NCBI RefSeq assembly: GCF_031851795.1
Contig: NZ_CP134696.1
Location: 7,006,001 to 7,070,000 of the forward strand
DNA from: Pontibacter sp. G13
GTDB lineage: Bacteria > Bacteroidota > Bacteroidia > J057
DNA: 64,000 nucleotides
Direction: 5' to 3'
The first letter of the stretch is position 1, and each line of letters begins with the position of its first letter. Shown here in pieces: positions 22,359 to 43,700 of the stretch. Position numbers and translations under genes: made by a program. The notes under the pieces are model-generated. The model was not told the origin of the DNA. It made no database searches and saw only the letters and a program-made list of their open reading frames with translations.

Positions 22359-22400
22359 GGAATTTGGGCAAATGGGCCGTTTCCTGCTAATTTGCCTCCT

Positions 22401-23492
22401 ATGTCCATGCCCACAAGTCCCAGATCCGTCAAAAAACAGCTTTGGAGGATGGCGCTCATCACTTCCCCGCTCTTGGGGATCTATGGGACGCTACCTATCA
22501 TGATGTTTCTGGATGCCTATCCTGCCTTGCGTCCGGAACCGATTTTGTCGGAAGAGTTCCGCATGCTGATCGGATTGATATTCGTTTCCTTCAGCACCTT
22601 TGGCCAATGGATGATCAACCTATGGATGGTCAGGATCGAACGGAAGCTCACCCTGCACAAATTCCACCAACAGGTCCTCTTTCGCTATGTGGGCTCGTTT
22701 CTGCTGATCGGAATATTCATGGGACTGGCGATGGGCATTTTGGACACCATCAAGCCTGACCGAGTGGCCGAGACCATCGGGATTTTGCGGTTTTATCCCA
22801 TCCTGACAGCTTTCACCAATAATCTGGTGATCCTGCTGATCATTCGGGTGGTATTGGCCAATTATGAGAAATCCAAGCTGGAGCTTCAGAAGGCGCAATT
22901 GGAGATCGATCATCTCCTGTCCCAGCAGGCTCAACTCAAGCAACAGATCCATCCTCACTTTTTATTCAATGTCTTGGCGACGCTTCAAATTTTCATCTCT
23001 CGGGACCCAGAGCGGGCCAAGGCCTACACGCAGGACGTCGCGAAGTATCTCCGCAGATCGCTTGAGATGGCGGAGCGCAATCTCGTGTCCGTCAGAGAGG
23101 ATTTGGATTTTTTCAGGCAGTACATGCACCTTCAGCAAATCCGATTCGGAGAGGCGATTCAGTATGAAGTACACCTATCGGACGGGTTGCTTGAGAATGG
23201 GAGACTGCCTGTCTATACCCTCCAGATGCTCGCAGAGAATGCGATCAAGCACAATGCCGCTGATACGGAGCATCCGTTGGTGATTGAAATCCGGGAGGGC
23301 GCCAAAGGTAGGATCGAGGTATCCAATAATCGAAGGCCCAAGTTCCATTCGGAGCCGACGACCCAGATCGGATTGGCCAACCTGTCCCAGCGATTTGGGC
23401 ATTTCACCGAACAACTTCCCGATATTTCCACAGTAGATGATCGTTTTTCCGTCACCTTAGCTACCCACCTCGATGAGAGTATTGATCATTGA
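22401..23492 (+). CDS. LytS/YehU-type sensor histidine kinase
   Basis: Membrane histidine kinase of the His_kinase (PF06580) family. Four hydrophobic segments lie in the first ~155 residues (for example LITSPLLGIYGTLPIMMF and YVGSFLLIGIFMGLAMGIL), with no periplasmic sensor domain. After a coiled-coil linker comes the phosphoacceptor motif QQIHPHFLFNVLATLQ, then the N-box MLAENAIKHN and a short ATPase end (IGLANLSQRFG). I chose the ATG at 22401, three codons after an in-frame TTG. The last 20 bp overlap the response-regulator gene, so the two are translationally coupled. Input signal unknown; the membrane domain or the preceding exported protein may sense it. Confidence 0.9.
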   Translation: MSMPTSPRSVKKQLWRMALITSPLLGIYGTLPIMMFLDAYPALRPEPILSEEFRMLIGLIFVSFSTFGQWMINLWMVRIERKLTLHKFHQQVLFRYVGSFLLIGIFMGLAMGILDTIKPDRVAETIGILRFYPILTAFTNNLVILLIIRVVLANYEKSKLELQKAQLEIDHLLSQQAQLKQQIHPHFLFNVLATLQIFISRDPERAKAYTQDVAKYLRRSLEMAERNLVSVREDLDFFRQYMHLQQIRFGEAIQYEVHLSDGLLENGRLPVYTLQMLAENAIKHNAADTEHPLVIEIREGAKGRIEVSNNRRPKFHSEPTTQIGLANLSQRFGHFTEQLPDISTVDDRFSVTLATHLDESIDH

Positions 23493-24234
23493 AGATGAAT
23501 CCCTGATGGCCGAGGCATTGAGAGATGAGCTATTGGCACTGGAACCCCAGATGGAGATCATGGGCATGATGGGAAGTATTTCCGCAACACTGGCATTTCT
23601 GGAGCGGGAAGGCATGCCTGACTTGTTCTTCTCCGACATCGAATTGAGCGATGGGCTGAGCTTTGAGATTTTCCGGGTCTTGGAGCAAAAGGCTCCCGTC
23701 ATCTTCTGCACGGCTTACCACCATTATGCCTTGGAGGCGTTTCAGGCACATGGAATCGATTATCTGCTCAAACCCTTCGATCGATCTGACATTCAGGCCA
23801 CCTTGGACAAATACCATCAATTTTTTCCTCAACCATCGGTATCCCAGCCCTCGGAAGCTGTGGGGAGATTGGAGAATCTGCTTGAGCAGCAGTTTCAGCC
23901 CCAATCTTTGTTGGTTTACAAAGGCGCCGATATTTTTCCCTTACAGCTCGGGGAACTTGCCCTGCTTCAAGTGGGGGCCGGGCACGTGATTGCGCATACC
24001 TTCGATGGCCGTCAATTTGTGGTCAATCAATCCATGGACCGACTGGCGAGCACTTTGGGAAATGCGTTCTTTCGGGTCAATCGCCAGTTTCTCATTCATC
24101 GCAAGGCGATTTCCCACGTTTCTCCCTATTTCTCCCGAAAATTGCTGGTCAATCCCCGAATCGATTTTTCAGAGCCATTGGTCATCTCCAAGGCCAATGC
24201 GACCAATTTCCTGCGATGGCTGGAAATGGGATAA
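23473..24234 (+). CDS. LytTR-family response regulator
   Basis: Response regulator with a receiver domain (residues 1-115) and a LytTR DNA-binding domain (about 150-253). Acidic pocket IIEDE at the start, DLFFSDIEL with the phosphoacceptor Asp near residue 56, FCTAYHHYALEAF with the Thr/Ala switch, and YLLKPFD with the conserved Lys. LytTR features include LLVYKGADIFPLQL, FFRVNRQFLIHRKAI and the C-terminal beta strand region. It starts inside the kinase gene. Targets are unknown; the flanking receptor operons at 17.3 and 24.4 kb are obvious candidates because the second receptor starts 190 bp downstream. Confidence 0.92.
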   Translation: MRVLIIEDESLMAEALRDELLALEPQMEIMGMMGSISATLAFLEREGMPDLFFSDIELSDGLSFEIFRVLEQKAPVIFCTAYHHYALEAFQAHGIDYLLKPFDRSDIQATLDKYHQFFPQPSVSQPSEAVGRLENLLEQQFQPQSLLVYKGADIFPLQLGELALLQVGAGHVIAHTFDGRQFVVNQSMDRLASTLGNAFFRVNRQFLIHRKAISHVSPYFSRKLLVNPRIDFSEPLVISKANATNFLRWLEMG

Positions 24235-24423
24235 TGCCTGTCCTATTTGATTTTTCCGAATGAAATGAGCGACCCCGCAAAATGCCCGATTTGCCTTGGG
24301 CCTCATTGGCAAGAAAGCATGGCCGCTTCGCAGGGGAATTTGCCCGTTTCGTAGAACGAGAACATCCATTTCCCCTCCATATTCGAATATCGAGGCGATA
24401 TTTCGCATCAATATTTCCGCTAT

Positions 24424-26748
24424 ATGCTTAGAACATGTTGCTGGCTGCTGGCCATGCTTGGAATCTGCTCCTTGGGCTTTGGACAGACCAAGTTTACCAT
24501 CAGTGGTCAAATCAAGGACGCCTCCAATGGAGAGGACCTTGCCTTTGCCACCATCCTCGCCAAGGATCTCCCCGGGGTCGGGACCAATTCCAATGTCTAT
24601 GGGTTTTATTCCCTGACCTTGGAAGCTGGGGAACACACCATTGTCTATCGCTCGATGGGGTATTCGCCCATTGAAAAGACCATCAACCTCACCGCTGATC
24701 TCCGTATCGACATCGAACTGGAAACGCAGGTGACCAGCTTGGAGGAGGTGGTGATCTCTGGAGAGCGAGAAGATCAAAATATCACCCGAAACGAGGGGAG
24801 TGTCACACGTGTCAGCATGGATGATGTGAAAGCGCTTCCTGCATTTGGCGGTGAGCCAGATGTGATCAAGATCATCCAATTGAATCCCGGGATCAAGTCC
24901 GCCGGAGAAGGTAACTCCGGATTCTATGTACGTGGAGGCGGCTTGGATCAAAATTTGGTTCTATTGGATGAAGCGCCAGTTTACAATCCCTCCCACTTGC
25001 TGGGCTTTTTCTCGGTCTTCAATGGAGATGCCTTGAAATCTGCCACTGTCTACAAAGGCGGAATGATGCCGGAATATGGAGGCCGTACCGCTTCTGTGAT
25101 GGATATTCGCATGAAGGACGGAAACAAGAAGAAATACGAAGTGGCGGGCGGAATCGGCTCGATTGCCTCCCGTCTGACGGTGGAAGGCCCTATCGTGAAG
25201 GATCGCGGTTCTTTCATGGTTTCCGGACGTCGGACGTATGCGGATATCTTTCTGGCACTCTCCAATGACGAGGCGCTCAAGAAATCCATCCTGTATTTCT
25301 ACGACTTGAACCTCAAGGCCAATTACCGACTTTCGGACCGGGACCGGATTTATATATCAGGCTACTTCGGGCGGGACAAGTTTGGATTTGATGACTTGTT
25401 TGGACTCAACTGGGGAAATGCCACGGGTACTTTCCGATGGAATCACCTGTTTACCGACAAGCTATTTTCCAATACTTCCTTCATCTACAGCAATTACGAT
25501 TACCAATTCGGCTTTGGATTGGATGATGATCAGATTGCCCTTCAGTCCGTGATTCGGGACTTCAACTTCAAGCAGGATTTTTCCTATTCTGCGAATGAGA
25601 AGAACTACCTGAAATTCGGTTTCAACGTCATTCACCATACCATCGAGCCGGGCAACTTGACAGCAGGTGCCAATACGGGAATTCCCAATCAGAAGGCCGA
25701 GGAAAAATACGGACTGGAAGGAGCCGCCTACGTGCAAAACGAGCAGAAAATCGGGGAGCGCCTGTCTCTCAATTATGGCTTCCGATATTCCTTTTTCCAG
25801 CAGTTGGGGCCCGGAGCACAATACGAATATGACAGTGAAGGCAATTTGGTGTCCCAATCCAACTTTGATGATTGGGAGGGAATGCAGTTCTACGGAGGGC
25901 TGGAGCCAAGATTATCAGCGAACTTCCGATTGAGCTCAAACAACGCCATCAAATTGGCCTTGAATCGGAACTACCAGTTTATCCACTTGCTCAGCAATGC
26001 CACTTCCTCCACCCCGACGGATACGTGGATCATGAGCTCCAACAACGTCAAGCCCCAGATCGCCGATCAGATTTCCTTGGGATACTTCCACAACTTTGCC
26101 GACAACATGTACGAGTCCTCCGTGGAGGTCTACTACAAGGATATGCAGAATGTCATTGACTACCGAAACGGTGCCAATGTATTCTTCAACGATCTGTTGG
26201 AAGGCGATTTGGTCTATGGAGATGGAACGGCCTACGGCGTGGAATTTCTGATGAAGAAGAATCGTGGAAAATTGACCGGATGGTTCTCTTACACCCTTTC
26301 GCGTACCTTGCGCCAATTCGAGGAGATCAACAATGGGGATTGGTTCCCCGCGAGACAGGATCGGATTCATGACCTCTCCCTCGTGGCGATGTATCAGGTG
26401 ACTCCGAAGATTACCCTGACCGGAAATTACATCTATTACACAGGAGATGCGGTGACATTCCCAACAGGAAAATACGAGATCGAGGGCATGACCATTCCTT
26501 ACTACACCGAACGGAATGGCTATCGGATGCCTGATTACCACCGGATGGACCTCGGAATCACCATTCAGGGGAAAAAGACCGAGCGCTTCGAATCCAATTG
26601 GAACTTGTCTGTCTACAACGTGTATGGGCGAGAGAATGCCTATACCATCACCTTCCAGCCAAGCGACGATGATCCTGCCGTCACGCAGGCTGTCCAGCTT
26701 TCCCTCTTCAAATGGGTTCCATCCTTCACCTACAACTTCAAATTCTAG
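24424..26748 (+). CDS. TonB-dependent outer-membrane receptor (DUF4249-paired, copy 2)
   Basis: 774-residue outer-membrane receptor: signal peptide MLRTCCWLLAMLGICSLGFGQ, carboxypeptidase-like regulatory domain (ISGQIKDASNGEDLAFATI; about 24-110), then a plug with GGEPDVIKIIQLNPGIKS, GFYVRGGGLDQNLVLLDEAPV and MMPEYGGRTASVMDIRMKDG, and a beta-barrel ending VPSFTYNFKF with a terminal Phe. It is paralogous to the receptor at 18411 in plug motifs and length. The DUF4249 lipoprotein gene starts 3 bp after its stop codon. Ligand unknown; the nearby LytTR regulator may control it. Confidence 0.93.
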   Translation: MLRTCCWLLAMLGICSLGFGQTKFTISGQIKDASNGEDLAFATILAKDLPGVGTNSNVYGFYSLTLEAGEHTIVYRSMGYSPIEKTINLTADLRIDIELETQVTSLEEVVISGEREDQNITRNEGSVTRVSMDDVKALPAFGGEPDVIKIIQLNPGIKSAGEGNSGFYVRGGGLDQNLVLLDEAPVYNPSHLLGFFSVFNGDALKSATVYKGGMMPEYGGRTASVMDIRMKDGNKKKYEVAGGIGSIASRLTVEGPIVKDRGSFMVSGRRTYADIFLALSNDEALKKSILYFYDLNLKANYRLSDRDRIYISGYFGRDKFGFDDLFGLNWGNATGTFRWNHLFTDKLFSNTSFIYSNYDYQFGFGLDDDQIALQSVIRDFNFKQDFSYSANEKNYLKFGFNVIHHTIEPGNLTAGANTGIPNQKAEEKYGLEGAAYVQNEQKIGERLSLNYGFRYSFFQQLGPGAQYEYDSEGNLVSQSNFDDWEGMQFYGGLEPRLSANFRLSSNNAIKLALNRNYQFIHLLSNATSSTPTDTWIMSSNNVKPQIADQISLGYFHNFADNMYESSVEVYYKDMQNVIDYRNGANVFFNDLLEGDLVYGDGTAYGVEFLMKKNRGKLTGWFSYTLSRTLRQFEEINNGDWFPARQDRIHDLSLVAMYQVTPKITLTGNYIYYTGDAVTFPTGKYEIEGMTIPYYTERNGYRMPDYHRMDLGITIQGKKTERFESNWNLSVYNVYGRENAYTITFQPSDDDPAVTQAVQLSLFKWVPSFTYNFKF

Positions 26749-26751
26749 CCA

Positions 26752-27561
26752 ATGAAATCATTTACATATATCCTCATGGGCCTGATGGTGGCATTGGCCT
26801 CCACCGCTTGCGAGAAAGTGATCGACGTGGATTTGGAGGAAACGGATCGCGTGATCGTCATCGAAGCCGCTTTGTCCGAGGGAACACAGGACTTTCAGGT
26901 GAATATCTCCAAGACGACCAACTACTTCGGAGCGAGTGAAGACCTCTTTGTACCAGATGCGACGGTTGTGCTAGCCGATGATGAGGGGACTACCTGGCCG
27001 ATCGATCATGTCGGGGAAGGCGTGTATGTCGCCCCGGTTACCGCAATGGCTGGCCGTACCTATACCCTCACGGTAGAGGCCGAAGGAGAGACCTACACAG
27101 CGATTTCCAGATTGCTGCAACCAGTAACATTGGATTCCCTGACCATCGAATTTCAAGAACCCATTGGCGCCTTCGAAGGCGGCTATCTGGTCTTCCTGAA
27201 TTATCAAGATCCGGCGGGAGTCTCCAATTTCTACCGAGCGCTTCACGAGCGAAATGGAGAATTGCAGACCGGCCCGGATTTTCTACAATTGTGGGATGAT
27301 GGAATTGTGGATGGGACAGAAACCCGCCTACCGTTGTTCAATCAGTTTTTCGAAGTGGGGGATACCGTGATGGTGGAAATGCGCCATTTGGACGAACCCG
27401 TCTATGATTATTACGAGACATTGTCTGCGATCATCGGTACCGGTGGCGGAGGAGGAAGTGGCGTAGCCGCACCTGCGAATCCCAACACCAATTGGACCGG
27501 TAATGCACAAGGTCATTTCAGCACCTACAGCAGCTCCTATCAGACGATGATTGTGGAGTAG
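26752..27561 (+). CDS. DUF4249 lipoprotein
   Basis: DUF4249-family lipoprotein, 269 residues. Signal MKSFTYILMGLMVALASTAC with lipobox STAC, followed by the family opening EKVIDVDLEETDRVIVIEAALSEG, then DATVVLADDEGTTWPI and YTLTVEAEGETYTAISRL. The C-terminal third contains a short Gly/Ser/Ala-rich stretch (GGGGGSGVAAP). It is separated by 3 bp from the upstream receptor, so translation is very likely coupled. Proposed role: surface or periplasmic accessory to that receptor. Transcription ends at the strong hairpin at 27588. Confidence 0.9.
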   Translation: MKSFTYILMGLMVALASTACEKVIDVDLEETDRVIVIEAALSEGTQDFQVNISKTTNYFGASEDLFVPDATVVLADDEGTTWPIDHVGEGVYVAPVTAMAGRTYTLTVEAEGETYTAISRLLQPVTLDSLTIEFQEPIGAFEGGYLVFLNYQDPAGVSNFYRALHERNGELQTGPDFLQLWDDGIVDGTETRLPLFNQFFEVGDTVMVEMRHLDEPVYDYYETLSAIIGTGGGGGSGVAAPANPNTNWTGNAQGHFSTYSSSYQTMIVE

Positions 27562-28460: not shown

Positions 28461-29441
28461 CTACTGTACAGGTAGTAGGGCCTCCCGAATTTGGCGGATT
28501 TCCACCTCTGTCAATCCTAATCCTTCCACGAGATATTGATTGAATGAGCCGTATTGTGTTTGCACAGTATGGAGGGCGGCCATCATCTGGGCTTCATGAG
28601 CACCGATAGCGGGCCGGAGCTTTTGGGAACTTTTTTCCCACTGTGCCTGCAGGTCCTGCGCTTGATATAGATTCGTGGTCAGGTAATCCCGGATGATTTC
28701 GGAATCTCCATACCCAAGTGCGCCAAGTACCATCGCTCCTGCAAAGCCCGTCCGGTCCTTGCCGCCTTGACAATGGTATAGCACCGGATAATGGGCTGTA
28801 TCCGCCAAGATCCGCATGAATTCGCCATAAGGCTTCACGAATTCGGTGACAAATTCTTGATAGCGCTCAATCCGGGCAGCGGCAATATCGATATGGGCAG
28901 ATTCGAGCAAGGAATCGACTGCCTCAACATTGCCCGCAATAAAAAGTGCCCGGATTTCGGAGATCATTTCTGGCGGCAATAATTCCTTCACCTCGCTCGG
29001 ATTCCGACCGATAGGCAGATGAATTGTTTGGGTGCCGGGAATGACTCGGTCTGGATACTGTTCCATTTCCTCTGCCGACCGGAAATCCACGATGGTTCTG
29101 ATTCCCATCTCGGTCATTTTGGCGATATCCTCCTCTGTCAGTGCATGCAAGGCATCTGACCGATACAATTTGCCCGGCGTTGCCAAGGGCGGTTCTTGGG
29201 AACTGTAGGCAAATTCACGGAAGTTCTTGAGGCCTTCAAATGGATGAAAGACTTCAATTTCCCGGCAGTTTGTAGGAAGTGGAATGTCGAGAGAATCTCC
29301 GCAAGTTGAACTCACCGAGGCTTTCCGGGCTTCGACTTCCTGATCTGCTTGGGAGGAAGGGGGAGATTGGCAATAGGCTAGGGAAAGGATGCTGACGATT
29401 GCCAGCACCATTTTTGGACCCCGTTTGATTGGTTGAAACAT
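28461..29441 (-). CDS. Exported PTP-like tyrosine/lipid phosphatase (lipoprotein), copy 1
   Basis: Cysteine-based phosphatase of the bacterial Y_phosphatase3 (MptpB/LipA-like) group. Signal with KRGPKMVLAIVSILSLAYC and a lipobox-like LAYC. The phosphatase domain starts with NFREF and LYRSDALHALTEED; TIVDFRSAEEME is the general-acid/substrate region, and the P-loop is HCQGGKDRTGFAG, with the extra Lys-Asp seen in atypical dual-specificity and phosphoinositide phosphatases. 326 residues. It lies 9 bp after a homologous phosphatase gene and in the same direction as a TonB receptor. Being exported, it likely dephosphorylates an extracytoplasmic phosphoester rather than acting in cytoplasmic signalling. 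Confidence 0.88.
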   Translation of the reverse strand: MFQPIKRGPKMVLAIVSILSLAYCQSPPSSQADQEVEARKASVSSTCGDSLDIPLPTNCREIEVFHPFEGLKNFREFAYSSQEPPLATPGKLYRSDALHALTEEDIAKMTEMGIRTIVDFRSAEEMEQYPDRVIPGTQTIHLPIGRNPSEVKELLPPEMISEIRALFIAGNVEAVDSLLESAHIDIAAARIERYQEFVTEFVKPYGEFMRILADTAHYPVLYHCQGGKDRTGFAGAMVLGALGYGDSEIIRDYLTTNLYQAQDLQAQWEKSSQKLRPAIGAHEAQMMAALHTVQTQYGSFNQYLVEGLGLTEVEIRQIREALLPVQ

Positions 29442-29450
29442 CCGACGCGT

Positions 29451-30575
29451 TTATTGGTCTAGAGAAATCATCACACTGTCTTGAACGGGCGTATATCCGT
29501 CCAGCAACAATCCTTTGAGTTGTTCTCGCTCAGTTGGACCCACTCCCAAGGCCGTCTCCAGATAGTTGTCCATTCCCCCAAATTCATTGTCGATCACGTT
29601 GAGTGCCTGCTGAATATATTCCGCACGAACTTCCATGAGGGGGCCGAGTTTATGGGCATTGTCGCCAAAGATCATGGCTGCTTTTTGCAACTGTTCTTCA
29701 GCAAAAGGAAGGATGTGATGATTGGATAAGAGATAGTCCTGAACCACAGTTTCACGATCAACGCCAATTGCGGACAATACTAGCACCGAAGCCAAGCCTG
29801 TACGATCTTTTCCCGCTGTACAATGGTACAGCATGGGGTAGGAATCAGGTTTCAGCAAGGTCTCGAAGTATTGGGTGAATTGTGGTTGGGTAATTTTGGG
29901 AAAATCGCGATTTCCCTTGATGAGGACTTGCTCCGGTTGGAACGTGTCCTGCTGAATCAATTCGATCAATTTGTCTCTACTCAGGGAAGTGTCCCCAATC
30001 GGCACGTGAAGGTAGTTGACCCCCATTTCTTCCCAAGGATCAGGCTCGGCCTCGATTTCTTCGTGTCTCCGAAAATCGAAGAAGGTGCTGAAGTTGATTG
30101 TGTTCAGCAAGGCCTTGTCGTCTTCAGATAGATCTGCCAGAGATCCCGATCTGAACAATTTGTTGAATTTCACTGTGTATCCATCGATGGTTTTGATTCC
30201 ACCCATATCACGGAAATTGTAGGATCCATCGAGTGGTAGACGACGTTGAGCCACCATTTGGGTGTCCTTCCCCTGAATGTAGACGAAATGCGGATGGGCA
30301 TTCACTCGGAAAGAAGCGGGAAGCAAACCAGCGGTATCGAGTTCAACAGGATGGACATAGTCTGCCTGACCTTCCGCGTCCAGTGAAAATAACTGGCCAA
30401 GGGTACCTTTCTGTTGAGCCTTGAGCTGTAGTCTGCCGGAAGTATGGGGAACCAATTCGGCATCTGCGAGGATGGGAAGCGGCCCTAAATCGTCAAACAT
30501 GGGTTCTGAATGACAAGCCATCAAGATCGTGGTTCCGAGAATTGCTCCTCTGGAAATCCATTTGGAAATATTCAT
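29451..30575 (-). CDS. Exported PTP-like tyrosine/lipid phosphatase (lipoprotein), copy 2
   Basis: 374-residue paralogue of the next gene. I start it at the ATG at 30575 (MNISKWISRGAILGTTILMAC, lipobox-like LMAC); the longer frame upstream overlaps the receptor gene and has no signal. An extra N-terminal domain of ~100 residues precedes the phosphatase domain: YNFRDMGGIKTIDGYTVKF, LFRSGSLADLSEDD, FFDFRRHEEIE and the P-loop HCTAGKDRTGLAS. The GKDRTG loop is characteristic of lipid/phosphoinositide-type and MptpB-type phosphatases. It is 68 bp downstream of the TonB receptor, making a receptor-phosphatase-phosphatase operon. The physiological substrate is unknown. Confidence 0.88.
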   Translation of the reverse strand: MNISKWISRGAILGTTILMACHSEPMFDDLGPLPILADAELVPHTSGRLQLKAQQKGTLGQLFSLDAEGQADYVHPVELDTAGLLPASFRVNAHPHFVYIQGKDTQMVAQRRLPLDGSYNFRDMGGIKTIDGYTVKFNKLFRSGSLADLSEDDKALLNTINFSTFFDFRRHEEIEAEPDPWEEMGVNYLHVPIGDTSLSRDKLIELIQQDTFQPEQVLIKGNRDFPKITQPQFTQYFETLLKPDSYPMLYHCTAGKDRTGLASVLVLSAIGVDRETVVQDYLLSNHHILPFAEEQLQKAAMIFGDNAHKLGPLMEVRAEYIQQALNVIDNEFGGMDNYLETALGVGPTEREQLKGLLLDGYTPVQDSVMISLDQ

Positions 30576-30643
30576 GTGGATGTATGATAAGTGCAGACGG
30601 CACAAAGGCCGCCTGCGAGTGAGGGATGTAAGTGTGATAGGGA

Positions 30644-33532
30644 TTACAAGCTGATCCGGATTCCGGCTTGTCCACGAATGGAGTAGTATTCCTCCTGCTC
30701 CGTGCGTTCGCGAGACCCGTGATAGTATCTCAGTGGCTCGTTGGTGAGGTTGTTGACCTCGACGAATACACGGATCTGGTTGTTGATCGCGTAGGCCGCG
30801 TTGAAGTCTACTGTGAAGTTTTTGTCGTACCAACGGTAGTGTGCAGGGCCGGCAGCGAGACGATATTCGTCTACATATTCACCCTTGTAGTTACCAGCAA
30901 TTCGTGCAGTGATCCCATGCTTTTCGTAAAAGAGGATCGCATTGAAGATATGCTCAGGCTGATTGATCAATGGTTGTTTGTCATCGAACCCAGGAACTGC
31001 GACCTCAGATTGGGTGAAGGTATAGTTGGTGTTTACCCCAAATCCGCTGAGGAATCCAGGCAGGAAGGTCAGACGCTTGGAGAATCCTACCTCCACACCG
31101 AACAGCCATGCATCTTCGGAGTTTTCGGGCTGAACGAGGTTGACCAATTGGCCGTCCATTTCCAGCTGGGTGGTGTTGCTGAAGATCACATCTTTCAGAT
31201 CCTTGTAGAACACGCCCCCAGAGAGAATCCCCACATCCTTGAAGTAGTAGCTACCCAACAGGTCGAAGTTGTTGGAGAAGGTAGGCTTCAAGTTCGGATT
31301 ACCTTGGGAAATGGTTGGGATGGTTCCCGGATCGACCAATGCACTTGGATTCAGGTCGGAGAAGTTTGGACGAGCAAAGGTCCGGGTGTAGGCCGCACGT
31401 ACGTTGAGGTTTTCGGTAGCCTCCCATTTTGCGTGAACCATCGGCTGTACGGCATGGTAGGAGTTGGTCGCCTCGATTTCAGTCAGAACCAACTCTTCGT
31501 CTACTTCTTCCCCATAGAATCCATTCAATTCCACTTGGGTGAATTCGTAGCGAAGACCACCCACAAAGCTCAAGTCTTTGGTTGCCTGCCATTCAGCCAT
31601 TCCGTAACCAGCGGTCACTTGTTCGGAACCATCAATTTTGGAAATGGCATCTTCCCCTGTATTGGTGGCATCAAGATATACTTGTTGGCCTTCTGGGCTT
31701 ACTGCGAATGCCAGTAGCGCTTCCAGTTGGTCCTCAGTGATGTTGTCGATGAAGAGGTCTTCATAAGGAGATCCCAATTCCTTGAGCATGCCTCCTTTGG
31801 TGTCATAAGGTTCACGCTCCAATTGATCCAATGTCTGCACCAATTCAGGCATTCCGATGAATTTGCCGAGCGGGAGATAGGGTCCGATGGAGAAGAAGGA
31901 CTGCTTGGACTTGCTACGGTATTTCGCACCGAACTTGATTTTCCATTCGGAGGCGGGTTCCAGTTCGAAGTTCACCTGACCGACGAAGTCTTCTTCCCGG
32001 GAATCAGAACCGAAGTTTAGCAGTTGTTGGAGTTCCATTTGGCTGGCATCCAACGGGGTGGAGGTTCCGGCTGCGAATGGTGCTTCCATGGGGCCAACTC
32101 CATCTGGAGCATCAAATCCCCAGTATTGGTAGCCGTCGGAGCTCACGTTGTCGTAATCCACCTCTTGACGGAAAATCGCGATCGCAAGACCCGGAGCCTC
32201 TACAGGCAAATCGGAATCTGCACCCGTAGTCAAATCCGACAAATAGTAGGAACCCTTCCAATCTACCTTCATGGTGCTGCTCAATTGGTGCTCACCACCA
32301 ATTTCGCCTCCGTAGAGAGTCGTAAGAAAATTGGCGTTCCGGGCCATCAATTCAGCGTTGCCTGCAGCACTCAGCGGGAAGATTCCGGCTACTGGGTTTA
32401 GAGGGTCTGGGTAGTAGAAGTCATGCTGGCGAACAAATTCCCGGTCTTGGAATCGATTGTACAATCCGCGGGCAAACAATTGATTGTTATCGTCGATCTG
32501 GTAGTCAGTCGCCAAGTTGAACCCAATTGTCTGGCGGCTACCTTCGTAGTCGCGCAATTGCATATTGTTGATGGAGAAACCCTGCTCTCCGGGGTATTGG
32601 AAATTATATTCCAATTCGTAGTTGTCGGATGCCCATTTGCGGGTCCAGATAGCGGCTGTAGCAATGACGCCGAGCTTGTTGTCGAGGAATCGATCTCCAA
32701 CTACTATTGAACCGTTATAGGTTCCATCTTGAACTTGGGCATTGTACCCACCCGCCAAGCTGACATTGAACATCCCATCCACAGGAGCGGTGCGAGTCTG
32801 GAAATCGATGACACCCCCGATGACATCTCCCTCCATATCAGGCGTGATGGCCTTGGTTACGGTCACATATTCGATCAACTCTGATGGAATGACATCCAAA
32901 GCGGTAGAGCGAGATCCATCCAAAATATCGGTTGATGGAATACGGTCGCCATTGATTCGAGCGGAGTTCCATTCGATTGGGGTACCCCGGACGATGGCAA
33001 AACGGCCTTCTCCTTGATCTCGTTCGATGGTCACGCCGGGGATCCGCTGTACGGCCTCGGCTGCATTGCGATCTGGAAGTTTTCCGATGGCATCGGAAGC
33101 CAGTACATTCTGGATAGCATTGGATTCTTTCATCATGCTCAAAGCCCGCATCTGGGAGGGAAGATATGAGCCCAAGATCATGACATCATTCAATTCCAAT
33201 GTGGCTTCACTCAGTTCGATATTTCCGAGGTTAACCACCTGTGAGGCGGAAACCGAGATGGATTGCTCTAGGGTGTTGTACCCGATGATGGAAACCAACA
33301 GCTTGTATGATCCAGCTTCCACGTTGGTGATGCGGAAGGAACCTTGATTGTCAGATACTGCACCGATGGTGGTGGACTCCAGGCGGACAGTGACGCCCGG
33401 AAGTGGCCCGTTAGCGTCGATCACGCGGCCAATGATACTTGCTTTGCCTTGTGCCAGCATCGTGTTCGTGCCCAAGAGGGAGCCTGCAAACACCATGACC
33501 AACGACAAGATCATAGGTAGAATTCGTTTCAT
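30644..33532 (-). CDS. TonB-dependent receptor, TonB-Xanth-Caul-like
   Basis: 962-residue outer-membrane receptor of a different subgroup from the two DUF4249-paired ones. Signal peptide with LVMVFAGSLLG; carboxypeptidase-like domain (about 35-115; IIGRVIDANGPLPGVTVRLES); plug with SDAIGKLPDRNAAEAVQRIP, FAIVRGTPIEWNSARINGDR and DVIGGVIDFQTRTA, the pattern of the TonB-Xanth-Caul family common in Xanthomonas and Caulobacter; beta-barrel ending RGQAGIRISL. No SusD or DUF4249 gene follows; two exported phosphatase lipoproteins do. I infer uptake of a phosphorylated compound or its dephosphorylated product. A terminator at 33627 separates it from the regulator upstream, so it probably has its own promoter. 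Confidence 0.93.
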   Translation of the reverse strand: MKRILPMILSLVMVFAGSLLGTNTMLAQGKASIIGRVIDANGPLPGVTVRLESTTIGAVSDNQGSFRITNVEAGSYKLLVSIIGYNTLEQSISVSASQVVNLGNIELSEATLELNDVMILGSYLPSQMRALSMMKESNAIQNVLASDAIGKLPDRNAAEAVQRIPGVTIERDQGEGRFAIVRGTPIEWNSARINGDRIPSTDILDGSRSTALDVIPSELIEYVTVTKAITPDMEGDVIGGVIDFQTRTAPVDGMFNVSLAGGYNAQVQDGTYNGSIVVGDRFLDNKLGVIATAAIWTRKWASDNYELEYNFQYPGEQGFSINNMQLRDYEGSRQTIGFNLATDYQIDDNNQLFARGLYNRFQDREFVRQHDFYYPDPLNPVAGIFPLSAAGNAELMARNANFLTTLYGGEIGGEHQLSSTMKVDWKGSYYLSDLTTGADSDLPVEAPGLAIAIFRQEVDYDNVSSDGYQYWGFDAPDGVGPMEAPFAAGTSTPLDASQMELQQLLNFGSDSREEDFVGQVNFELEPASEWKIKFGAKYRSKSKQSFFSIGPYLPLGKFIGMPELVQTLDQLEREPYDTKGGMLKELGSPYEDLFIDNITEDQLEALLAFAVSPEGQQVYLDATNTGEDAISKIDGSEQVTAGYGMAEWQATKDLSFVGGLRYEFTQVELNGFYGEEVDEELVLTEIEATNSYHAVQPMVHAKWEATENLNVRAAYTRTFARPNFSDLNPSALVDPGTIPTISQGNPNLKPTFSNNFDLLGSYYFKDVGILSGGVFYKDLKDVIFSNTTQLEMDGQLVNLVQPENSEDAWLFGVEVGFSKRLTFLPGFLSGFGVNTNYTFTQSEVAVPGFDDKQPLINQPEHIFNAILFYEKHGITARIAGNYKGEYVDEYRLAAGPAHYRWYDKNFTVDFNAAYAINNQIRVFVEVNNLTNEPLRYYHGSRERTEQEEYYSIRGQAGIRISL

Positions 33533-33626
33533 TATCTTCTTGTTTGCTGAAAAGGAAACAACGGATTGTGCAAGTATCGGAGATCGACGAGAGCGGCGCG
33601 AACACCCCGTCCGGCACGAACCAGAA

Positions 33627-33654
33627 AACGTCCGTCCCCAACGGGACGGACGTT
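33627..33654 (-). terminator. Rho-independent terminator of the membrane AraC gene
   Basis: AACGTCCGTCCC (33627-33638) and GGGACGGACGTT (33643-33654) form a perfect 12-bp stem with a 4-nt loop; on the minus strand TTTT follows. It lies 85 bp past the AraC gene end and ~95 bp before the receptor start. Confidence 0.85.
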
Positions 33655-33738
33655 CAATATGCTGATGTAGAGGGGTTTGTGGGTTTGTTAAGCTTCTGTA
33701 ATCAAATCGTTTCGAACGACTTAATGTGCCTGAAGTAT

Positions 33739-34827
33739 CTAGGCGGCATGCTTCGAAGGTGCATGGGTCTTGCGGTATTGGGAAGGAGAAACGCCAACGA
33801 TCTTTTTGAAATAAGCGTTGAAGGAGGTCTTGGAGTTGAAGCCTGCGGCATAGGCAAGTTGAAGCAAATTCTCTTCCGAGCCAGATTTGATAAGTGCCTG
33901 AGCCGTCTGGACCCGGTAGGTGTTGATGTATTGGTAGAAAGTCTTGCCCAAAGTCCGATTCAAGGTTTCGGTGAGGTGGTGCTTGTTGATTCCGGAAGCT
34001 GTCGCCAATTCTCCCAGAGAGAGTGAAGCATTCAGGTAAGGCTTCTCTGTCTGCATGAGATGTTCTAGCTGTTCCAGATAGGCTATCGCTCGCGCTTCTG
34101 TGAGGCCGGATTTTTCATATTTGCTCTTTTCCTCCATAGATTCGGTCGGCGCTTCAGGTTGAAGAGGTTCAATGGATGGAGAAGTCGAGGAAATCTCCTT
34201 TTTCTTGAGCAATTCCGTCATAATGGCCAACATCAGGAAACACATTTCTCCATATCCGACATACCTGATGATGGAGAGATCTACCTCCACAAATAGACTC
34301 CCCAAGAGTGCAATATGCGGAAGCAGGGACAGTAATGCCGGAACCTTCAGCCAAGCCAAAACCCCTTGGGAATCATGTTTGAGAATTGCCCATACTACAT
34401 AGACCCAATAGCCGCCACCTGAGACCAGAACCGCCATTCCTGCAATCCTCGAATAGGTGATGAGAATGGCTGGATTTTGAGTGATCATATACCATGCCCC
34501 TACCAATACATAGACAATGGCCAATACCCCCATTAAGGCAAAATGAATGCGACGGGTAGGCTGGGGGACTGGCTTTTGGAACAATTTGGCTTTGACATAG
34601 AAGTAGATCGGCGGTCCATATCCCACGGCGAAGCACGTCACCATGTGATTGAACATGAAGGAATCCTGTAGAATTTCCCGGAGGAAAAACTTGAGCCCCA
34701 TGTGTATGGACATCAGGAACACCAGATAGAAAAGGTACCGCTCAGGATCCTGCCGGCGGAAATCCTTCCACAGCAGGTAACTGGCCAACAAGGCCTGTGT
34801 CAGGGAGGTAGATAACAAAAATCCCAC
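33739..34827 (-). CDS. Membrane-anchored AraC-family regulator
   Basis: 362-residue regulator: the first ~225 residues contain six to seven hydrophobic segments (for example YLFYLVFLMSIHMGLKFF and FALMGVLAIVYVLVGAWYMI), then a linker with charged residues, then a C-terminal AraC-type HTH domain (about 255-355; LGELATASGINKHHLTETLNRT and AYAAGFNSKTSFNAYFKKIVGVSPSQYRK). This membrane-plus-AraC design is common in Bacteroidota and presumably couples a membrane or periplasmic signal to transcription. Placed directly upstream of and co-directional with the TonB receptor/phosphatase genes, so it likely controls them. Confidence 0.9.
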   Translation of the reverse strand: MGFLLSTSLTQALLASYLLWKDFRRQDPERYLFYLVFLMSIHMGLKFFLREILQDSFMFNHMVTCFAVGYGPPIYFYVKAKLFQKPVPQPTRRIHFALMGVLAIVYVLVGAWYMITQNPAILITYSRIAGMAVLVSGGGYWVYVVWAILKHDSQGVLAWLKVPALLSLLPHIALLGSLFVEVDLSIIRYVGYGEMCFLMLAIMTELLKKKEISSTSPSIEPLQPEAPTESMEEKSKYEKSGLTEARAIAYLEQLEHLMQTEKPYLNASLSLGELATASGINKHHLTETLNRTLGKTFYQYINTYRVQTAQALIKSGSEENLLQLAYAAGFNSKTSFNAYFKKIVGVSPSQYRKTHAPSKHAA

Positions 34828-34990: not shown

Positions 34991-35076
34991 GGAGGAAGGT
35001 TATTTGGATGTATTGATAATGAGTGCGATATGGAAATGAGTGTGAGACTTGTCCGGATTTTCCGAAGAGTAAGAGC

Positions 35077-36018
35077 ATGTCGCTTCTAGTGGAAATTCCA
35101 GTTTTTGATGAAAATCTGTTTGAGAAAATCTACTTGATGGGTCTATCTTTTGATGCCCTTGAAAGCATCCGATTCCCAAGTTTGACAGTCGATTGCCCTA
35201 GAGATTACCTGAATCGATCAGATATGAAATTACCTAGCGGAACATATTTTGGCGATCGAGCAGAGGCCCTGTCTGTAGGGAGATACCAATTGACCTGGCA
35301 TCGATACCCACCCAAAGAGCGGCTTCCTGCTCATGTGCATACCCACCCGTACCTGAGTGTGGCCGTTTCCGGAAAATACCAAGAGTGCTTTTCTGCGAAT
35401 AAGGAAATGCAGGTGAATCCCATGCAGGTCCTACTTCGACCATCGGGTTACCGTCACGCCAATACGTTTGGGAAAGAAGCAGGCTGGTGCTTCAATTTGG
35501 ATTGGGAAGGCAAATTTCCGGATTGGATGCCGGAATTATTCTCTTTGGATCAGCCCAAAAATTGGGAGGTAAGTCCCTGGGAATTGACTCTACTCATGCA
35601 TGCCTCTATCATGGATTTTGCCGAAGATGAACTGAACTTGTTGGCAGATGAGGCCATGATTGGCTTGGGAAAATATGCACACACGAATCGATACACAGAA
35701 AAGGTAACCTCCATGCTGGAATACCTTCATGGCCGGTATGCTGAGCCATGTTCGTTGGAGGAAATGGGATTGACGCTGAAGGTTCATCCGGTTTATCTGA
35801 GCCGGATCTTCAAACGTGTTATGGGGATGACCATCGGCCAATACTTACGTAGACTGCGAATCACCAAGTCCTGGGGAGACTTGTGGGGAAATGAATCTCT
35901 GACCGGAATCGCACATGATCGGGGATTTTGCGATCAGGCCCATTACTCCAAAACCTTCAAAAACCTATTGGGGCAAACTCCCTCCCAGGCCCGAAAAAAA
36001 ATGCGGAAACTCGAATAG
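35077..36018 (+). CDS. AraC-family regulator with cupin-like sensor domain
   Basis: Soluble AraC regulator. The N-terminal half has a cupin-like pattern (LPAHVHTHPYLSVAVSGKYQE and MQVLLRPSGYRHANTF), the usual small-ligand sensor. The C-terminal ~100 residues form two HTH motifs (SLEEMGLTLKVHPVYLSRIFKRV and LTGIAHDRGFCDQAHYSKTFK, then LGQTPSQARK). The start is uncertain: a GTG at 35023 and ATGs at 35077 and 35224 are all in frame; I chose the first ATG. It is divergent from the membrane AraC gene at 34827, with about 250 bp between them, so both may regulate the shared intergenic region. Ligand unknown. Confidence 0.85.
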   Translation: MSLLVEIPVFDENLFEKIYLMGLSFDALESIRFPSLTVDCPRDYLNRSDMKLPSGTYFGDRAEALSVGRYQLTWHRYPPKERLPAHVHTHPYLSVAVSGKYQECFSANKEMQVNPMQVLLRPSGYRHANTFGKEAGWCFNLDWEGKFPDWMPELFSLDQPKNWEVSPWELTLLMHASIMDFAEDELNLLADEAMIGLGKYAHTNRYTEKVTSMLEYLHGRYAEPCSLEEMGLTLKVHPVYLSRIFKRVMGMTIGQYLRRLRITKSWGDLWGNESLTGIAHDRGFCDQAHYSKTFKNLLGQTPSQARKKMRKLE

Positions 36019-36105: not shown

Positions 36106-37050
36106 CTAAGCCTGAACAGGTTTGCTGGTTCCCGTTCTCGTTTGAAGGAATTCATTCACGGCGTCCTTCCCTGCCTTGACCAATGCATCTTGTTGTGCTT
36201 GGGTCAGGTCAAAATCAGTGGCTTTAACATGGCAATCGCTGACCATAACCGTCCGAGTTACGTCGGATGGGTCCATATGGAAATCCAGAACCTGAGCGCT
36301 CAATATGGTCTCAAAGTTGTTGGCGATGAATTTGATGAGATGGTCGTACCCAAACGGATGATAGGTGGGAGGAGTACCCGGGGCAGGCTTGAAGTAGAAG
36401 CCGAGTGTCTCGGGATTGACGGTGCTCTGAAGACCGGTAGGAAGGAATTCGGGTTCATCGAACACACTCATCGGATAGTTGTAGACCATTCCACCATCCA
36501 CGTACAGGTCTTCTGTCAATTCTCCCACAGAAAATTTAAAGGCATCGAAAAACAATGGGATAGACATGGAAGCCCTTGCGGCCTCAGCGATTTGGGTATT
36601 GGGGGTTTTACGATCGCTCAGTTCTTCAATGGTTTGGCGGTTGACATTGGTGGCAAACAGGAAGGTGTCCCGACCTCCAGCTGCCTTTAGATCTGCAAAT
36701 GTCGCGTCCTCCGTCAAATTCAAAGGGGATTTTGCGACCTTCTCCTTGAGCCATTCGAGGGCGAATTCTCCCTTGTAGTAGCCATATTTGGAAGCTATTC
36801 GCAACGGATTGGGCTTGTCCATGAAGTCCTTGAAACTCGTGGAGGAGAGAATCTCCATGATGTCTTTGGGTTCGTAGCGTAGTCCAATCAACAAACTGGT
36901 AATGGCCCCTGCGGAGGTTCCCCCAACTCGGGTGATCGAATCATACATGCCGTGTGCATCAAGCGCTTCCAGCACACCTGCGTAGGCGATTCCTTTGACA
37001 CCGCCTCCACGGAAAACGAGGTTCTTGTACACGGGATTTTCGTTGCTCAT
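36106..37050 (-). CDS. Patatin-like phospholipase
   Basis: Cytoplasmic patatin-family acyl hydrolase with a Ser-Asp dyad. The oxyanion-hole motif is RGGGVKGIAYAGVLEAL (residues ~14-30), the nucleophile elbow is GGTSAGAI (near 44), and the catalytic Asp is in DGGMVYNYP (near 200). 314 residues, no signal peptide or membrane segment, so it probably acts on membrane lipids from the inside. Monocistronic, convergent with the AraC gene at 36018. Bacterial members may be housekeeping lipases or effectors; nothing around it indicates an effector role. Confidence 0.9.
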   Translation of the reverse strand: MSNENPVYKNLVFRGGGVKGIAYAGVLEALDAHGMYDSITRVGGTSAGAITSLLIGLRYEPKDIMEILSSTSFKDFMDKPNPLRIASKYGYYKGEFALEWLKEKVAKSPLNLTEDATFADLKAAGGRDTFLFATNVNRQTIEELSDRKTPNTQIAEAARASMSIPLFFDAFKFSVGELTEDLYVDGGMVYNYPMSVFDEPEFLPTGLQSTVNPETLGFYFKPAPGTPPTYHPFGYDHLIKFIANNFETILSAQVLDFHMDPSDVTRTVMVSDCHVKATDFDLTQAQQDALVKAGKDAVNEFLQTRTGTSKPVQA

Positions 37051-40784: not shown

Positions 40785-43700
40785 TTATTTTCGGATGATG
40801 AATGATTGGCTGAGGTGGCTGTGCGCCAGTTCTACCATCAGCATGTACTGCCCTTCTGGTAGCTGTGCAACGTTTAATTTCCAGTCCTTTCCGCTCCAAG
40901 TTTCTGTAGTGCGGAAGACTTCCTGTCCTTGGAGATTGTAGATCACCAAATTGGCTGGGGTCGCCTCTAATTCTCCGATGATGCGAACTTGCATCATTCC
41001 GGGGTTCGGATTGGGGAAGAGAGACAGTTGAAATGGTTCGGCGCTAGCCTCGTCCAAATTCGCCATCCGGGCACTTCCTGATGAGCCGAATACTGCGTAT
41101 GCAATCGCCTCTGGTGTATGTGCACGTTCGGTGTCATTGACTTGATCTTCATCGAACATCGCGGTCATGGAAGAGCTTGATACAGGGTTGTTGCCGAACA
41201 AGACCGGCCATCCACCATTGGCGCCATCCATTCCCGCGACGGAAAGAATCGCACCCTCTGCATTTCCCAACGTGTGGGAAAGCGCATATCCGACCGTGGA
41301 ATTGCCAGGTCCGCGTACAACATCCGCACTCAGGCCAGCCTCGATAGATACCCCATCTGCCGTACCGTTTCCTGCTTCGAAAATGATCAGCCCGATGGTT
41401 TCATTGGCACGGGCAACTGTGGGATCTTCTCCTACATTCTTGCCTGCGTTGAACACCGAAGCCGTAGGTTCATCTGAGCGCGCGGAGCCATTCGCCCAGA
41501 ACGTACTCCAATTGGCATCTTGCTGGCTCATGATCTGCCCCAGGACAATCGGCTGGGAATAGGACTGCTGGTAGCTTTGAGATTCAGTGACCCAGCTATT
41601 GTTGTCAGCAGTGAGACTGGAAGTCACGGTTTGGGCTTCCATTTTGATTCCGTCTTGGGCAACGGAATACGTTCCCGCTTCTACGGCCAAGAAGTGCACC
41701 TCCACCCCAGAAAGGGTATTTCCTGCCGGGTTTTGAACTCGGAGATCGAAACCTGTTCCAGACACATTTTGGATACGGGTGGTCACAGGGACATCCGTAG
41801 CGGCTGCCAACACGGGCGTTGCTACGATGACTGGATTGGTGAAGGTCTTGGTGAACGAAACGGTCGTCCAAGAACCACTTGCCACATTGCTCAACACGCC
41901 TTGCTCGACCACAAGTGCGGATGAGGGGGTAGAAGTGGTGGTGACAACCGTGATTGCCGAGTAAGCGGAAGTGTTTCCCGCGGCATCGCTCGCACGTACA
42001 ACTACGTCATAGCTGGTACCGGCCGCTAAGCCGGAAACAGACAGAGTAGTATTTGCTGTGGATCCATAGACGGAGGAGCCGCCGTCCATGGAGATTTCGT
42101 ATTGGGTGACAGCTATGTTGTCGGTGGAGGCGGTCCAGGAGAGATCAAAAGATTGCTCGCCCAGATTGGTCGCTCCGATTCCGGTAGGCACAGAGGGAGC
42201 TTGGGTATCAGCAGGTGTGCCCGTTCCGAGATCGAGGCGGGTTTTCACAGGATCGTGATCGGATACCGCAGAAGAAAGGATCTCATTGCGCAGCGCGGCT
42301 GGTACAGCCAAATACTCGGCTTCAAGCTCATTGGAGATCAAGATATGGTCAATATCGCCATAGGAAAGATCTGCAACCGATCCGGCAGCGTGTGAAAAGT
42401 CTGGATTCCCGTCATTGTCATTGTCGCTGTAAACTCCCCATGTGGCAATCTCGCCATTCGCACCTCCATTGTCTGCGACGTTGAGGTCCCCCAGAATGAT
42501 CACTTCTTCCTGAGCATAATAGGTGTCGAGATCGGAAACGAGGGCTTGCATAGAGCTCAATCTACGACTCGCGCTTCCTGTACAGCATTTCAAGTGAAGA
42601 TCGACGAAGTGGAGACGCTGCGTGGCCCCATTTACTGTGACGTCCGCCACCAGCATGAAAGGCAATCTGCCGGATGCGAATCGGTTGTCCCCCGAGGGAA
42701 TCCAAGTCAACAATGTGGTGTCTTGTACGTGAGAAACGATACTGGTCTTGTAGACAAATGCCTGACGTTGGGCGGGGAAACTGTTGAAATCCGGATTCCA
42801 CCAATAGGAGAAGTACTGGTTGTAGACTCCGCCCCATGTCTCTGAAGGATCGAGTGCATTCAGCTCTGTGAGCAGGTCTGCAAGGGCATCGCCATTGACT
42901 GGGTCAATGACGATTTCTTGCAAGGCGAATACATCACCGTCCACATTCAATATCTCTTGTGCCGCAGCCGTGATCTGCTGGGCGCGGGTCATGCTCAAGC
43001 CTGCGCGGGTAGGATCTCCCAACCATTCGATGTTGAAGGTCACTACATCCAGATAATCCTCCAGAACCGTGTAGCTAGCCACGCTGGAATTAGCGGTGTT
43101 GCCATCGTTGTCGGTGGCGGATACCTGATAGTAAATGGTGGTTCCCGCTACTTGGGCAGGAATGCTGCCGCTGGTGTAGGTCGTTCCGCTCCCCAAGGTC
43201 ATGGTGGAGGTATTGCCCAAAGTGCTTGTCGTTCCCCAATTCAGGGTCGCTGAACTGACGGTTCCTTCATTGTCGGAAATATCAGCTGAAACTGTCACCG
43301 TTTCGGTAGGCAAAACCTGCCCCAACGGATTGCGGGAAATGTTGGAGAGGGTTGGAGGATTGGAACCAGAAGGGTAAGCTACTTCCACCAAAACATTGTC
43401 CAACTCCCAAGTACCCGCTGAAGAAGTGGTGGACAAGTATTTGAATCCTAGGTAAACGCTGCTCTGGCCAACGTATGCAGCCAAATCGACTGTTCCGGTA
43501 CTAATGAATGTCCAGCTGGCACCGCCAGTTCTAGAAGGCATGGACAGGGTCGTCCAAGTAGCTGCGTTGGGATTGCCGGTGCCGCTGTAGTCTGAAGAAA
43601 TCAGTACTTGGCAGTTTCCGGATACATTGCTCTCATAGTTGGCTGCCTCGTCAAAAGACATTTGGGCCGTAGCAACAGTACTGAGGTCTATTGAGGGCGA

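Follow-up and report, generated by a model that had tools for sequence, protein, structure and literature searches.

The stretch of DNA analysed here, 64,000 nt of the genome of Pontibacter sp. G13 (contig NZ_CP134696.1, positions 7,006,001 to 7,070,000; hereafter the window), contains a group of four genes on the minus strand which encode a TonB-dependent receptor, two phosphatases related to protein tyrosine phosphatases (PTP1 and PTP2), and an AraC-type regulator with membrane segments (Table 1). An initial annotation had described a receptor of the TonB-Xanth-Caul type, two paralogous phosphatases with HCxxGKDRTG loops and a membrane AraC protein, all reading leftward, and each of the four genes was confirmed in its place. 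The intergenic gaps are short, with 9 bp between the PTP1 and PTP2 genes and 68 bp between PTP2 and the receptor gene. The mechanical open reading frame of PTP2 starts at 30833, within the receptor gene, and this start was dropped because of the overlap; the ATG at 30575, which lies past the receptor stop codon, was taken instead.

Table 1. Features of the receptor-phosphatase locus (positions in the window)
Feature	Position	Strand	Details
PTP1, Y_phosphatase3 (MptpB-type) phosphatase	28461..29441	-	326 aa; P-loop HCQGGKDRTG; PF13350 185 bits
PTP2, lipoprotein Y_phosphatase3 phosphatase	29451..30575	-	374 aa; P-loop HCTAGKDRTG; PF13350 222 bits
TonB-dependent receptor, TonB-Xanth-Caul subfamily	30644..33532	-	TIGR01782 503 bits; CarboxypepD_reg-like N-terminal domain
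Hairpin between AraC and receptor genes	33626..33655	-	13 bp; -26 kcal/mol, z -4.4
AraC-type regulator, N-terminal membrane segments (about 5-7), C-terminal HTH_18	33739..34827	-	PF12833

By sequence and predicted fold, PTP1 and PTP2 are both MptpB-type 'atypical lipid phosphatases' (ALPs). They are the only two matches to PF13350 (Y_phosphatase3) in the whole 7.67 Mb genome, share 26-27% identity, and have P-loops that fit HCxxGKDR[TA]G, the loop by which the ALP family is defined (PMC3091653). Searches with phmmer matched the two enzymes to MptpB (1ywf) with E values of 4.9e-17 and 2.6e-18, and in alignments with 46 and 29 of 54 relatives no variation was seen, PTP1 and PTP2 included, at H, C, G, D, R or G in the loop HC..G.DR.G, at N or R in the motif NFR, or at D, R or E in the motif DFR...E. 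The predicted structures had pLDDT values of 87.5 (PTP2) and 78.3 (PTP1), and the best fold matches were the C. difficile PTP 8dhj (Z 28.7) and MptpB 2oz5 (Z 27.0) for PTP2, and the same two entries in reverse order for PTP1 (2oz5, Z 25.7; 8dhj, Z 24.9). The next matches of the PTP2 model were AtPFA-DSP1 (Z 15.3), which we take to be a PP-IP phosphatase like Siw14, and Siw14 itself (Z 14.0), the entry of which is titled PP-IP phosphatase. The catalytic domain, P-loop and fold are thus the same as in known MptpB-type ALPs, and the window enzymes differ in being encoded together with an outer-membrane receptor and a regulator, and, in PTP2, by an added N-terminal beta-rich part (about residues 36-110); no further Pfam domain was named in either protein.

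The loop had initially been taken as related to that of the PTP-like phytases, a kinship that holds for the PTP fold, as PTP-like (cysteine) phytases share the PTP superfamily and CX5R catalysis, but goes no further, since both sequence and fold point to MptpB and the ALPs. The Pfam family PF14566, presumably that of the PTP-like phytases, was not among the matches of PTP1 and PTP2 at E <= 0.001, and no PTP-like phytase was recognised among the 50 fold matches listed in each search with the two models, which is no proof of absence; membership of that family was dropped.

The receptor scored well above the curated cut-off of the TonB-Xanth-Caul model TIGR01782 (503 versus 310 bits), and does not belong to the SusC type (TIGR04056, 60 bits versus a cut-off of 368), with no SusD family detected in a Pfam scan of the ten genes around it. 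Its scores for siderophore receptor models were far below their cut-offs, and no phytase (PF02333) was matched at the window locus, the only PF02333 gene of the genome lying elsewhere. In the AraC-type regulator, a strict threshold gives five hydrophobic segments and a looser one seven.

Relatives of the locus were sampled from the receptor side, with an alignment of three receptors searched against named genomes, and the best 80 of 250 relatives were kept and all used; a scan of genome contigs with PTP2 alone found no relative. A gene for an exported phosphoester-cleaving enzyme adjoins the receptor gene on the same strand in 80/80 loci, and this enzyme is either a PF13350-type phosphatase (53/80) or a phosphoinositide phospholipase C (PI-PLC, PI-PLC-C1 type; 27/80), while a relative of the membrane AraC protein adjoins the receptor at position -1 in 71/80. 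Two further loci (L046 and L051) came in via the enzyme side and are therefore a biased addition; with these included, the enzyme is present in 82/82 loci (55 phosphatase, 27 PI-PLC) and the AraC protein in 73, with one of the nine misses being a contig edge. The enzyme gene follows the receptor gene in 80/82 loci, with a median gap of 18 bp, and precedes it in 2/82, and the next commonest neighbour family is present in 10 loci only. The linkage of receptor and enzyme is far beyond chance, and receptor, enzyme and membrane AraC protein form a conserved module, newly recognised here, that is widely shared in Bacteroidota, in genera including Flavobacterium, Pedobacter, Chitinophaga, Chryseobacterium, Bacteroides, Spirosoma and Algoriphagus.

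The PI-PLC proteins form one cluster, of which two members were checked and belong to PF16670 (Ca2+-dependent phosphoinositide phospholipase C), the others being placed with them because they cluster together and have a motif in common. PTP and PI-PLC, two unrelated enzymes, are alternative partners of a single receptor family. The phosphatase loci hold 56 enzymes, in which the P-loop position occupied by Lys in the window enzymes is Arg in 34, Lys in 21 and Gln in one. Two enzymes per locus are rare, and among the 82 other loci were seen only in Aestuariibaculum (L071, 10871-12835), with two PTPs, the first of which has the P-loop HCQAGQDRAG with the Lys replaced, and in Echinicola arenosa (L066, 10800-13611), with two PI-PLCs. 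Across Bacteroidota the linkage of receptor and enzyme is conserved, and a pair of phosphatases is the exception.

Several further arrangements were seen around such genes. An AraC-PTP pair of the group-B kind (L047, 3674-5369) has no receptor in the 15 kb covered, and seems either to have lost its receptor or never to have had one. In Emticicia agri (L091, 7977-17322), a receptor and PTP pair without an AraC gene at position -1 is directly followed by genes for another receptor, a beta-helix protein and a beta-propeller phytase; this stretch is possibly an inositol-phosphate island. On two alphaproteobacterial plasmids, of Sphingomonas (L142) and Asticcacaulis (L143), a PTP gene lies between two TonB receptor genes; one receptor beside the Asticcacaulis PTP gene matches the window receptor (24.6% identity), while on the Sphingomonas plasmid the receptor encoded immediately ahead of PTP has no such match and a related receptor follows the PTP gene. 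The coupling may therefore extend beyond Bacteroidota.

In a tree of the 82 receptors and that of the window, the PI-PLC loci formed a single clade with support of 100, requiring one change of enzyme as opposed to a mean of about 23 in shuffled data. When 44 of the 82 loci were rooted with seven distant outgroup receptors, this clade was placed inside the PTP loci (SH-aLRT 89), although this was a quick search with very long outgroup branches that calls for a warning of long-branch effects. Since the PI-PLC clade is single and nested in the PTP loci, PI-PLC most likely replaced PTP once while the receptor stayed in place. Within the phosphatases, PTP2 is sister to the enzyme of Algoriphagus marincola (support 91), as is the window receptor to the receptor of that species, and PTP2 is the standard enzyme of the module. 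PTP1 has a long branch, and looks like an added paralogue because it groups, weakly (support 82), with enzymes not linked to a receptor and with the extra enzyme of Aestuariibaculum. Closer to Pontibacter sp. G13, in 12 genomes of its family, no strong PF13350 match was found (best score 106 bits), and the best receptor match among 20 relatives has 32% identity and adjoins a phytase, and the module is therefore patchy near this genome, by loss or transfer.

The neighbours of related receptors bear on the class of substrate. A sister group was sampled in 247 genomes with the phytase-linked receptor of Pontibacter sp. G13 itself, which is 31.7% identical to the receptor of the window and precedes a beta-propeller phytase that begins like a lipoprotein (L146, 5772-9818, corresponding to G000:C1 5590771-5594817). 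In the best 29 loci outside this genome, the receptor adjoins a strong beta-propeller phytase match in 18 and a weak one (13-48 bits) in five; the remainder have a metallophosphoesterase (2/29) or nothing recognised (4/29). In plasmid records, a histidine phosphatase and metallophosphoesterases, one of the purple-acid type, lie beside such receptors. Phytase, PI-PLC and phosphoinositide phosphatase have inositol-phosphate chemistry in common, and from this we infer that import of an organic phosphoester, most likely an inositol-based one, is the best reading of the substrate.

The cellular site of cleavage was approached through the lipobox. The lipobox of PTP2 (LMAC) is clear, and that of PTP1 (LAYC) is non-canonical, with a Tyr before the Cys that makes its status as a lipoprotein doubtful, so that of the two lipoproteins first proposed one stands and the other is in question. 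Among the relatives, the pattern was matched by 0/45 group-B PTPs, 7/10 group-A loci and 6/27 PI-PLCs, in a count made with a simple N-terminal pattern and no signal-peptide program, which is weakened for eight group-B enzymes by over-long predicted starts, missed a plausible lipobox in the group-A locus L060, and scored L071 on the first of its two enzymes. In Bacteroidota, exported soluble proteins that lack a type IX sorting tail generally remain periplasmic, and the group-B relatives look like soluble periplasmic proteins. For these two reasons it is likelier that the intact phosphoester would be imported first and then cleaved in the periplasm than that it would be cleaved at the surface before import.

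On balance, we regard the locus as probably encoding a TonB-dependent system that takes up a phosphorylated organic compound; an inositol phosphate or a phosphoinositide head group is the likeliest candidate, and we place slightly more trust than doubt in this assignment. What we propose for the substrate class, the direction of its transport, the site of its cleavage and the regulator is as follows: the receptor would bind the phosphorylated compound and carry it uncleaved through the outer membrane; phosphate would then be removed, by cysteine-based (CX5R) catalysis, by PTP2 and the added PTP1, both located in the periplasm or turned towards it; and the membrane-spanning AraC protein may sense substrate or product and turn on the operon of receptor and enzymes. 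The cell would then gain phosphate, and not carbon from inositol broken down along the classic route, since no inositol-1-phosphate synthase (PF01658) was matched in the genome (98.1% complete), and neither IolG (102 bits, cut-off 355) nor IolE (62 bits, cut-off 290) reached its cut-off. Classic inositol catabolism as the aim of the module is not supported by these scores, and the inositol lipids of the cell itself were deemed an unlikely substrate given the lack of a PF01658 match.

A number of observations weigh against this interpretation, and some of them favour an alternative in which the same architecture serves another or a broad range of phosphoesters (phosphopeptides, nucleotides, sugar phosphates) as phosphorus source, with the PTPs acting as general periplasmic phosphatases. 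As described in PMC3091653, tested ALP members act on mono-phosphorylated phosphoinositides and are inactive on PI(3,4)P2, PI(4,5)P2 and PI(3,4,5)P3, and they also cleave phosphotyrosine peptides and p-nitrophenyl phosphate well, and 5'-AMP weakly. These preferences make intact phytate a doubtful substrate and a broad specificity possible. The genome already has a receptor and phytase pair, so the PTP module probably has another target; no inositol catabolic gene family was recurrent near the module loci, and the low IolG and IolE scores point the same way. Echinicola arenosa holds a PTP locus (L105) besides its PI-PLC locus (L066), and the two enzymes therefore need not share one substrate. 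In the AraC tree, which has long branches, the PI-PLC loci were not one clade (two changes), so that the regulator and receptor trees agree only in part. Viewed from the enzyme side, moreover, only 2/15 strong PF13350 matches in 392 genomes of the phylum, those of the window genome left aside, adjoin such a receptor, and PTP2, as a lipoprotein, could face outwards. Absence of linkage in related genomes had been named as evidence against a joint function, and the two sides of the linkage give different answers, complete from the receptor and sparse from the enzyme. A generalist phosphatase does not, however, explain why a PI-PLC-C1 enzyme is the alternative partner or why the sister receptors are mostly paired with phytases, and we consider broad phosphoester use a possible but doubtful explanation.

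The order of events first proposed, in which surface lipoprotein phosphatases strip the phosphate and the receptor imports the dephosphorylated product, appears unlikely, and somewhat less probable than broad phosphoester use. Bacteroidota can display lipoproteins on the outside, and both the clear lipobox of PTP2 and its frequency in group-A loci agree with surface cleavage, but the pattern is absent from the group-B PTPs and present in a minority of the PI-PLCs of the same kind of module, and no clear surface-export signal was seen by eye past the Cys. The other part of that proposal, nutrient import of an organic phosphoester, is supported by the conserved linkage, the intact catalytic residues and the phytase-paired sister receptors. 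Iron chelates are the classical cargo of TonB receptors, and inositol phosphates are able to bind iron; the receptor could accordingly be mainly an iron or metal carrier, with inositol phosphates taken up as metal chelates from which the phosphatases free the metal; this we judge improbable, as no iron gene family was noticed by eye among the recurrent neighbours and the siderophore models scored so low. Least probable of all is a signalling function, in which the phosphatases would act on proteins or lipids of the cell's own envelope and the genes around the receptor would be regulatory. The Pfam name of the family is that of a tyrosine phosphatase, and TpbA, which we take to be a regulatory periplasmic PTP, is a distant fold match; the tight operon structure and the PI-PLC as alternative partner argue against it, and lipids made from the cell's own inositol are unlikely without a synthase match.

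Although the initial annotation knew of no described system with two such phosphatases and a receptor, systems of the same general kind have been described. A receptor adjoining a phytase is noted in PMC3400609, and Flavobacterium johnsoniae induces a receptor with a 3-phytase, as well as PUS (PusCD) clusters, on phosphate depletion, according to PMC8115612. In a table of that paper a Ca2+-dependent phosphoinositide phospholipase C is entered in the PUSI rows, together with pf16670, and the word 'tyrosine' has no occurrence in its text. The pairs of TonB receptor and beta-propeller phytase (3-phytase) resemble the window module in having a related receptor followed by a gene for an exported phosphatase, and differ from it in the fold of the enzyme, which here is a cysteine PTP (or PI-PLC), and in lacking the conserved membrane AraC protein. 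The PUS clusters likewise couple outer-membrane uptake to phosphatases or phosphodiesterases, but PUSI and PUSII use SusC/SusD pairs, whereas the window locus has a single TonB-Xanth-Caul receptor and its own AraC protein. Receptor-phosphatase pairs are thus already known, and this module is set apart by its enzyme, receptor type and regulator; a limited literature search found no description of a TonB receptor with an MptpB-type phosphatase.

The ALP members characterised in PMC3091653 are from pathogens, and the biological role of the family is called unknown there. The link to a receptor, together with an alternative partner that cleaves phosphoinositides, gives a testable physiological role for this family in free-living bacteria, and since its carriers include such widespread genera as Flavobacterium, Pedobacter, Chitinophaga and Chryseobacterium, the module may have a bearing on how organic phosphorus is turned over. 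More tentatively, and with a probability that we would place clearly below even, there may be one lineage of inositol-phosphate receptors across Bacteroidota in which the exported enzyme can be exchanged, the choices being an MptpB-type phosphatase, a PI-PLC, a beta-propeller phytase, and perhaps phosphatases of the histidine and purple-acid types, with a conserved membrane AraC protein in the PTP/PI-PLC branch. In that case many of the 'tyrosine/lipid phosphatases' known from pathogens could serve in environmental bacteria, as their ordinary task, to scavenge phosphoinositides or inositol phosphates as nutrients.

The hairpin between the AraC and receptor genes is terminator-like, though its T run is short, and has a putative role as such. 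A shorter version of it was listed in a promoter and terminator scan, but both scans were uninformative, with site counts below those of shuffled sequence. Elsewhere in the window, a sensor kinase and LytTR regulator pair lies beside a TonB receptor and a DUF4249 protein (22392-27561) in what is a separate outer-membrane unit, and a patatin-like phospholipase (36106-37050) lies beside a second AraC-type regulator (35023-36018). Positions 40785-44918, some 6 kb away from the gene of the membrane AraC protein, encode a large secreted protein in which a lamin-tail domain, an endonuclease/exonuclease/phosphatase domain and a type IX sorting domain are combined, and which is possibly another phosphorus-scavenging enzyme.

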